A DNA stretch of 64,000 nucleotides from NCBI GenBank assembly GCA_902826695.1, contig CADEFU010000009.1, positions 1-64,000 on the forward strand, in the 5' to 3' direction. A program made the position numbers and the translations under genes. Under the pieces are notes generated by a model. It saw nothing but the letters and a program-made list of their open reading frames with translations, had not been told where the DNA came from and made no database searches. Positions 25,882-28,238 of the stretch are shown in pieces; positions within the stretch are counted from its first letter, which is position 1; each line of letters begins with the position of its first letter. Origin of the DNA: an uncultured Alphaproteobacteria bacterium. GTDB lineage: Bacteria > Pseudomonadota > Alphaproteobacteria > Micropepsales > Micropepsaceae.

Positions 25882-26532
25882 ATGCCGACACCCAAACTGG
25901 CATCTGCACCAGACGAACCTGAGAACGATTTCTGGCCGCGGGTTCAGGCCGCCCTACGCGCAGAACTTGGCGATTACCGCTTTGGTATGTGGATCGCGCA
26001 GATCGCCGTTAAATCGGCTGACGATGAGCGCGTCGTGCTCACATGCCCCACGGCATTCCGTAGCCTCAATGTGCAGGAGAAGTTCGGCGAGCGGATTAGC
26101 GCGTTGATTGCGCACTTCTCGGGCAAACGGCGGGGCGTGGAGTTCGAGCCGTTGGTAAAGCTTGATGGTCCGCGCGATCCGCAGGCGCTGTTCGCGACTG
26201 TGATTGAGTCACCGGCGCCGATGGCAGAACGGCGTGTCACCGTCGATCACGTGAAACGTCGTGCCACCGAATGGTACAACCTACAGCCCGGCGATCTGGA
26301 GTCGCGTAGTCGCAAGCGCGAGATCGTGCGGCCGCGGCAGATCGCGACCTATGTCGCGCGGCAACTGACGGGCCAGTCGTTCCCGCAAATCGCGCGCCGG
26401 TTCGGACCACGGGACCACACGACAATTTTACATGGATGTCAGCTGGTCGCTCAGAAGATGGCTAGCGATCCGGACTTCGCGGCCCAGGTCGAGGCGTTCA
26501 TCGACGCCGTCCGCGAAAGCAATCCGAGCTAG
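25882..26532 (+). CDS. DnaA-like protein with domains I and IV but no AAA+ domain
   Basis: The 216 residues form two known halves of DnaA. Residues 16-80 match domain I (FWPRVQAALRAELGDYRFGMW...LTCPTAFRSLNVQEKFGERI), the helicase-loading/oligomerisation domain. Residues 117-208 match the complete DNA-binding domain IV (VTVDHVKRRATEWYNL, then RPRQIATYVARQL and the signature FGPRDHTTILHG). Only about 35 residues separate them: Walker A, Walker B and the sensor regions are absent, so it cannot bind ATP like DnaA. The start at 25882 has GAGGGA 8 nt upstream; in-frame ATGs at 25852 and 25867 are weaker. It could bind DnaA boxes and dimerise as a competitor or transcription factor. It is not a fragment, since both domains are intact and in frame. 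Confidence 0.85.
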   Translation: MPTPKLASAPDEPENDFWPRVQAALRAELGDYRFGMWIAQIAVKSADDERVVLTCPTAFRSLNVQEKFGERISALIAHFSGKRRGVEFEPLVKLDGPRDPQALFATVIESPAPMAERRVTVDHVKRRATEWYNLQPGDLESRSRKREIVRPRQIATYVARQLTGQSFPQIARRFGPRDHTTILHGCQLVAQKMASDPDFAAQVEAFIDAVRESNPS

Positions 26533-26625: not shown

Positions 26626-27543
26626 ATGCAGGAGCCTATCGATCGCGACGCTATCATCCAGTGTCTGAAGCACATCAGACCGCATGTGCGGCGAACGCCC
26701 GTGCTCGCGGCGGGCGGCGATGTCACGCTCAAGCTTGAGTTCATGCAGCACGCAGGTTCGTTCAAGGCGCGAGGCGCCTTCACGAATCTGTTGCTGCGCG
26801 AGGTGCCGAAGGCCGGCGTCGTTGCAGCTTCCGGGGGCAATCACGGCGCGGCGGTTGCTTTCGCGGCGCAGAGACTTGGCAAGCCGGCAAAGATTTTTGT
26901 GCCGCAAATCTCCTCGCCGGCAAAGGTCGAGCGCATTCGCAGCTACGGTGCCGACTTGGTCGTGGGTGGAGCCGCCTATGCAGACGCACTCGCGGCAAGC
27001 GAGGCTTGGGCGGAGAGTTCCGGCGCGATGCGCGTGCATGCTTACGATCAACGCGAGACGCTGCTTGGCGCCGGCACAGTCGGGCTTGAAGTCGAAGAAC
27101 AGGTCGAAGGTGCCGAGACCGTGATTGCGGCCGTCGGCGGCGGAGGACTTCTGGGCGGCATTGCGGCGGCGGTTGCCGGGCGGATGCGTGTGATCGGTGT
27201 CGAGCCGGAGGGGTGCCCTACCCTAACCCATGCGCTGGCCGCCGGTCGGCCGGTCGATGCGCCGGTTGGTGGGATTGCCGCCGACTCGCTCGGCGCGAAG
27301 CGGATCGGCGACTTGATGTTTCCGATTGCCCGGCGCCATGTCGCGCAGGTCGTGCTCGTCAGCGACGAGGACATTCGCGCGGCGCAGCGGGCGCTGTGGG
27401 CCCAGTTCCGTATCGTCGCCGAACCCGGCGGAGCGGCAGCGTTTGCTGCGGTGCATGCGGGCCGCTACAAGCCGCATCCGGGTGAGCGGGTGGCGGTGGT
27501 CGTCAGCGGCGCGAACACGACGGCTGTGAACTTCGAGGCCTAA
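26626..27543 (+). CDS. PLP-dependent threonine/serine dehydratase-like enzyme
   Basis: This 305-residue fold-type II PLP enzyme has the Schiff-base lysine in HAGSFKARGA (K47), a substrate loop SGGNHGAAVAFAA and the phosphate-binding GGGGLLGGI. There is no ACT regulatory domain, so it is the catabolic or short biosynthetic type. It deaminates threonine or serine, or acts on hydroxyaspartate. The methyltransferase gene follows after 5 bp, so they are likely co-transcribed. The DnaA-like gene is 93 bp upstream. Confidence 0.9.
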   Translation: MQEPIDRDAIIQCLKHIRPHVRRTPVLAAGGDVTLKLEFMQHAGSFKARGAFTNLLLREVPKAGVVAASGGNHGAAVAFAAQRLGKPAKIFVPQISSPAKVERIRSYGADLVVGGAAYADALAASEAWAESSGAMRVHAYDQRETLLGAGTVGLEVEEQVEGAETVIAAVGGGGLLGGIAAAVAGRMRVIGVEPEGCPTLTHALAAGRPVDAPVGGIAADSLGAKRIGDLMFPIARRHVAQVVLVSDEDIRAAQRALWAQFRIVAEPGGAAAFAAVHAGRYKPHPGERVAVVVSGANTTAVNFEA

Positions 27544-27548
27544 GCTCC

Positions 27549-28238
27549 ATGACGGACGTCTATGACGACTATCGCGACGAATTCCGCAAGCGCGTGCTTG
27601 CGGGGCGGCCGCGCACGATCTTGGAGGTCGGGGCGGGCGACGGCGCCTTCTTGCGGACGGTTGCGGGCCAAGTCGATCGGCTCGCCGGGCTCGATCCCGA
27701 TGCGATGAACGTCGCCAATCTCAAGATGGAAGGCTTCGAAGCGGTCGAAGGCGTCGCGGAGCGGTTGCCGTTTGCGGACGGGGAATTCGACATCGTCGTG
27801 TTCTCGTTCACGCCGCATCACACCAGCGACTGGAACGCGGCGCTCAACGAAGCGATGCGCGTCGCGCGCAATGGGATCGAGATCCTGGACGTTTGGTACG
27901 ACGAGAGCATCGCCGATCAGCGCACGACGCTGGCGCTCGACCGTTGGTACAAGACGATCGACCGGCGCTTAGGGCTGGTGCACCACGACTGCCTCACGCC
28001 AGGCGCGCTGCTTCAGCCCGTGATTGCGCGGCCGGACATCACGTTCGACTATGCGTGCCGGCGCATCGCTTCCTCTCTCGATATGGCGGAGACGCTGGAG
28101 CACGGGCGCACGAAGCTCGCGAAGGTCGACAACGACCCGGCGCTTGCGCGCGCGTTCGAGGAGATCATGGCCGCCGGCCGGCGCGACGGGATGAGCGACG
28201 AAGGCGCGATCCTGATGACGATCGAGAAGCGGCGGTAG
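27549..28238 (+). CDS. class I SAM-dependent methyltransferase
   Basis: This 229-residue protein has the SAM motif I ILEVGAGDGAFLRTV near residues 20-34. The acidic residue comes after strand 2 (LAGLDPDAMNVANL), and motif IV is FDIVVFSFTPHHTSDW. It is of the Methyltransf_11 type. It follows the dehydratase by 5 bp and ends 0 bp from the convergent protease-like gene. Substrate unknown. Confidence 0.85.
   Translation: MTDVYDDYRDEFRKRVLAGRPRTILEVGAGDGAFLRTVAGQVDRLAGLDPDAMNVANLKMEGFEAVEGVAERLPFADGEFDIVVFSFTPHHTSDWNAALNEAMRVARNGIEILDVWYDESIADQRTTLALDRWYKTIDRRLGLVHHDCLTPGALLQPVIARPDITFDYACRRIASSLDMAETLEHGRTKLAKVDNDPALARAFEEIMAAGRRDGMSDEGAILMTIEKRR

Follow-up and report, generated by a model that had tools for sequence, protein, structure and literature searches.

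What does a DnaA protein become once its ATPase has been cut out? The protein is almost universal, and replicating once per cycle is considered to depend centrally on its ATP switch. The window analysed here, a 64,000-nucleotide stretch from the genome of an uncultured alphaproteobacterium (G000 below), raises this question directly. It carries a gene that a first-pass annotation had described as DnaA domain I joined to domain IV with the whole AAA+ module missing. The gene, its parts and its downstream neighbours are as follows.

25882..26532, forward strand: dnaA paralogue of 216 aa that lacks AAA+ and consists of domain I, a linker and domain IV; based on Pfam, AlphaFold2, Foldseek and the orthologue in a second genome (G007)
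25927..26112, forward strand: DnaA domain I (PF11638); 43.6 bits in the genome search, 41 bits as protein
26152..26232, forward strand: mostly disordered linker that retains a remnant of the domain IIIa start, RDPQALF (~26170-26190); based on alignment to full-length paralogues and low pLDDT
26245..26442, forward strand: DnaA domain IV helix-turn-helix (PF08299); 81.7 bits as protein, 84.2 in the genome search
26626..27543, forward strand: PALP-family (pyridoxal-phosphate) enzyme gene, the downstream neighbour; based on Pfam and synteny, and found at this place in G002 and G007 too
27549..28238, forward strand: class I methyltransferase gene; based on Pfam and synteny; in each of the seven same-locus genomes it lies downstream of the paralogue and on its strand

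The frame opens with an ATG at 25882, preceded by the ribosome-site-like GAGGGAAG, and its stop codon ends at 26532. Pfam places DnaA_N (PF11638) at residues 16-77 with 41.0 bits (cut-off 24.6) and Bac_DnaA_C (PF08299) at residues 122-187 with 81.7 bits (cut-off 31.5), and finds no match to Bac_DnaA (AAA+, PF00308) in the protein. The annotated architecture is thus borne out, and the reservation that neither domain might pass a profile threshold falls away. Pfam, alignment and tblastn agree that all of AAA+ domain III is deleted, including Walker A and B, the arginine finger and sensor 2. Against the NCBIfam DnaA equivalog the protein scores 121 bits, below the cut-off of 343.9; its sequence matches in the PDB are to DnaA domain IV and, weakly, to domain I. 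The annotation had also called for a fold prediction. AlphaFold2, given an input alignment of 18 sequences, returned two confident domains with low-confidence stretches between them (residues 93-99 and 102-115). Foldseek matched the model to the domain IV-DnaA-box complex 1j1v (rmsd 1.2, TM 0.92 by target) and to DnaA domain I in 4tps (TM 0.81). The connector is short, as first described, but runs to ~25-28 residues rather than ~35. This length includes RDPQALF, which aligns with LDPRLTF of a full-length paralogue and is the remnant of the domain IIIa start. For domain II, 21-27 residues have been reported as sufficient (PMC5835720), about the range of the linker seen here.

With a draft assembly of 30 contigs as the source, a sequencing or assembly error in a full-length dnaA has to be weighed; the evidence makes it negligibly probable. 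Exactly two genes in the genome carry each of domains I and IV: the window gene and an intact, full-length dnaA on contig C2. When the genome's canonical DnaA and a full-length paralogue were searched against the window by tblastn, the matches were confined to domain I (25.9-26.1 kb) and to domain IV (26.2-26.5 kb), with no AAA+ fragment in any frame. The window gene is therefore not the frameshifted full-length dnaA that the annotation had named as a possible refutation. Misassembly was rejected as well, since the independently assembled G007 contains an orthologue of the same architecture and junction, 59% identical to the window protein.

The history of the gene was traced in 11 genomes of the uncultured genus. 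Eight of them have a second dnaA-like gene, seven at one fixed locus; G003, G006 and G008 have none. Upstream of the paralogue, where the contig reaches, lie AMP-ligase, acetyl-CoA hydrolase and/or GNAT genes in the seven genomes. In G000, G002 and G007 the PALP gene sits between the paralogue and the methyltransferase gene. The methyltransferase gene follows on the same strand in seven genomes and no terminator-like site separates the two, which suggests co-transcription; the linkage has no bearing on targets. The empty site is preserved in G006 and G008, where the AMP-ligase and methyltransferase genes adjoin with no dnaA between. Among 96 genomes of the family, clear second domain I genes were found only in this genus, with one weak match elsewhere (G090, 26.6 bits). 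A contig search with the alignment as query matched only the public contigs of G007, G010 and G002; with the single window protein as query it gave no matches. In trees of domains I and IV the seven same-locus copies form one group (98/93) next to the canonical DnaA of the genus, and the two groups joined are supported at 93/89. The shared locus and the tree grouping together show that the second dnaA arose by duplication inside the genus or close to its base and has been passed on with its locus. In G001 the second dnaA is full length and lies at a locus unrelated to this one (L040 8135-9595, G001:C3); it branches apart from these paralogues and may stem from a separate duplication or have been relocated. 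An unrelated alphaproteobacterial family also contains a second full-length DnaA-like gene (469 aa frame; L154, G562:C13).

Copies of the paralogue differ in how much of the AAA+ module they retain. Those of G002 and G004 have a full module (PF00308 at 168 and 184 bits) in which Walker A and B, the arginine finger and sensor 2 are all there. The G009 copy, cut by a contig end, scores weakly for AAA+ and has a small deletion, a module that is eroding. In G005 the core IIIa is deleted and the lid IIIb kept, and in G000, G007 and G010 all of domain III is gone. Every deletion form keeps the same two domains in frame. The G000 and G007 copies share a junction that retains the first IIIa residues, whereas the G010 copy has a different linker. 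A single shared loss in these three genomes was considered and rejected: species markers (concatenated flanking-gene proteins plus canonical DnaA, incomplete for G002 and G005) group G000 with G007 (98/99) and reject a G000+G007+G010 clade (lnL 30 lower, p-AU 0.002). On the short I+IV paralogue alignment by itself, this clade is not rejected (p 0.066). Taken with vertical inheritance, which synteny supports, the rejected clade implies that the module was probably lost three separate times, in G000/G007, in G010 and, for IIIa only, in G005. Thus, sister species hold at one locus a second DnaA with its ATP switch intact, half removed or fully removed, which amounts to a natural experiment in initiator conversion. 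The interest of the case lies in the repetition of the loss and the survival of intermediates.

Repeated deletion and fast evolution could also mean that a dispensable second dnaA is losing pieces by chance, the I-IV form having no selected role. The eroding module in G009 and the absence of the gene from three genomes would accord with such decay. Between the I-IV orthologues of G000 and G007, dN/dS is 0.21 for domain I, 0.26 for domain IV and 0.25 overall, compared with 0.10 for the canonical DnaA pair of the same genomes (NG86; rough values, with synonymous sites near saturation). The paralogue evolves faster, and by these ratios its domains I and IV are under purifying selection that is weaker than on canonical DnaA but clear. 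Intact frames in both genomes despite near-saturated synonymous sites, the same two domains surviving in frame in each deletion form, and a similar form maintained in two Bosea species (below) all argue against chance decay, which we consider quite improbable.

Among the residues that survive are those by which DnaA reads its box. In E. coli DnaA, R399 reads the minor groove, and R399A and T435M impair box binding (PMC5742627). Domain IV of the window protein keeps the equivalents of R399, R407, Q408, P423, D433, H434, T435 and T436; across all eight copies these are identical except T435, which is T or S. Its domain I keeps the equivalents of Trp6, Trp25 and Phe46. Trp6, which supports domain I self-binding in E. 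coli (PMC5742627), has its equivalent in each of the seven copies with a domain I, and Phe46 in six of the seven. In E. coli, Glu21 and Phe46 bind DnaB and DiaA (PMC5742627); an equivalent of Glu21 is kept neither in the paralogue nor in the genus's canonical DnaA.

From these features we lean, with modest confidence, towards a protein that would act as an ATP-independent regulator binding DnaA-box-type DNA, derived from a second dnaA by deletion of its AAA+ module. The deletion would leave a box-reading domain IV and a protein-interaction domain I on a flexible linker. Such a protein may bind DnaA-box-like sites free of ATP control and may use domain I to pair weakly with another copy of itself or with DnaA. 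It would be unable to form the ATP-DnaA filament, to bind single-stranded origin DNA or to melt the origin, because filament formation, single-strand binding and melting are functions of domain III (PMC5835720). With that domain gone, the protein would not be expected to start replication at oriC. Regulation at box-like sites could then mean control of genes, occupation of sites that DnaA would use, or both. The first-pass suggestion of a dominant negative or a replication-linked transcription factor fits the kept box-contact residues and domain I tryptophans.

A more specific version of that suggestion is a replication brake: a natural dominant negative that would occupy oriC boxes and/or join DnaA through domain I in initiation-dead complexes. 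Base-contact residues matching canonical DnaA, the retained Trp6 equivalent and the loss of the module required for the ATP filament, single-strand binding and melting (PMC5835720) would all suit this role. Yet sister species retain copies with an intact AAA+ at this locus, and the gene is surrounded by metabolic genes and stands apart from dnaA. A search near it revealed neither a cluster of DnaA boxes nor a shared operator, and a second replication origin at the paralogue locus was rejected for want of such a cluster. The seven upstream regions have no 8-mer common to at least four of them, and their boxes are not consistently above chance. A dedicated brake seems unlikely, and a general DNA-binding regulator is favoured over it because of the missing box cluster, the metabolic surroundings and the absence of the gene from some species. 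Some of these observations also weigh against the regulator. There is no nearby box cluster or shared operator, and the 4.3 Mb genome has fewer perfect TTATCCACA sites than matches to a reversed control pattern (4 versus 15). Some species lack the paralogue, which moreover changes faster than canonical DnaA and so may be in slow decay. One perfect TTATCCACA site (G000:C2:112741-112749) lies ~1.6 kb upstream of the canonical dnaA.

Known relatives help to place the putative regulator. Canonical DnaA (TIGR00362; PF11638 + PF00308 + PF08299) shares domains I and IV with the window protein, box-contact residues included, and the window protein derives from it by duplication. It has domain III, however, and the window protein, having none, lacks the ATP switch, the filament and origin melting. 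Hda is an AAA+ protein homologous to DnaA domain III (PMC5835720). Like the window protein, Hda/HdaA derives from part of DnaA and is encoded alongside a complete DnaA; it is the AAA+ part, whereas the window protein, with no AAA+ match, is the converse, all but AAA+. Proteins with only domain IV (PRK06030-type, NF004686/NF004687) share the DnaA-type helix-turn-helix without an ATPase but have no domain I, and the window protein scores just 31.3 and 24.1 bits against the two models, below their cut-offs of 148 and 181. Duplicates beside the main dnaA are also described in two studies, as paralogues of Waddlia/Chlamydiae, treated as transcription factors in the Waddlia study (PMC4989314), and as tandem dnaA in Acidaminococcus (PMC4403523). 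Unlike here, the passages on these second copies mention no AAA+ deletion. DnaA, Hda, domain IV-only proteins and second full-length DnaA are thus known kinds. No description of a natural I-IV DnaA was found in the open-access literature; I-IV proteins are already in databases, unremarked.

Two such entries came from a tblastn search over plasmids: I-IV proteins of 261 and 278 aa on the megaplasmids pBSY19_1 of Bosea sp. RAC05 and pANAM02 of Bosea sp. ANAM02 (WP_083247352.1, WP_173051058.1). They score 28-29 bits for DnaA_N and 86-87 bits for Bac_DnaA_C, are 48% identical to each other and are annotated merely as helix-turn-helix proteins. Their genes occupy the same locus on both megaplasmids (L132 2926-3711, L168 3893-4729), downstream of an AAA family ATPase gene. 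A DotI/IcmL/TraM gene is close by on both. The Bosea proteins share with the window protein the I-IV architecture without AAA+. They differ in lying on plasmids of another order among other neighbours and in not keeping the P423 equivalent, and the RAC05 protein is 27% identical to the window protein; they are presumably of separate origin. The architecture therefore recurs and is not confined to this clade. It is tempting, if rather doubtful, to go further and see AAA+ deletion as a recurrent, selected route from a duplicated initiator to an ATP-independent antagonist or regulator of DnaA-box sites. This route, the converse of Hda, would have been taken some three times within this genus and independently on the Bosea megaplasmids. 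The effect of a box-binding DnaA without ATPase on initiation or transcription becomes directly testable with the copies found at one locus in the sister species, as does the recycling of an essential initiator after duplication.

A wider survey covered short frames with a second DnaA_N, leaving aside several longer secondary frames (~370-500 aa). Among the short frames read, no other I-IV gene turned up in the family set, the order set or the samples of 389 class and 397 phylum genomes, and the sampled phylum genomes outside the class gave no second DnaA_N match. In phage records, the best matches listed were domain IV or DnaA-like stretches, none covering 80% of the query. The short extra-DnaA_N frames read in the sampled genomes were replication or helix-turn-helix proteins with a C-terminal DnaA_N, or contig-end cuts. 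Many alphaproteobacteria encode proteins of the former kind, 180-400 aa long with an N-terminal HTH/replication-type part and DnaA domain I at the C-terminus (L155-L161, L163, L165, L104-L112, L116-L121), an architecture distinct from I-IV. One of them is a conserved gene of ~240 aa present in many genomes of family f22 (L155-L161, L163, L165).
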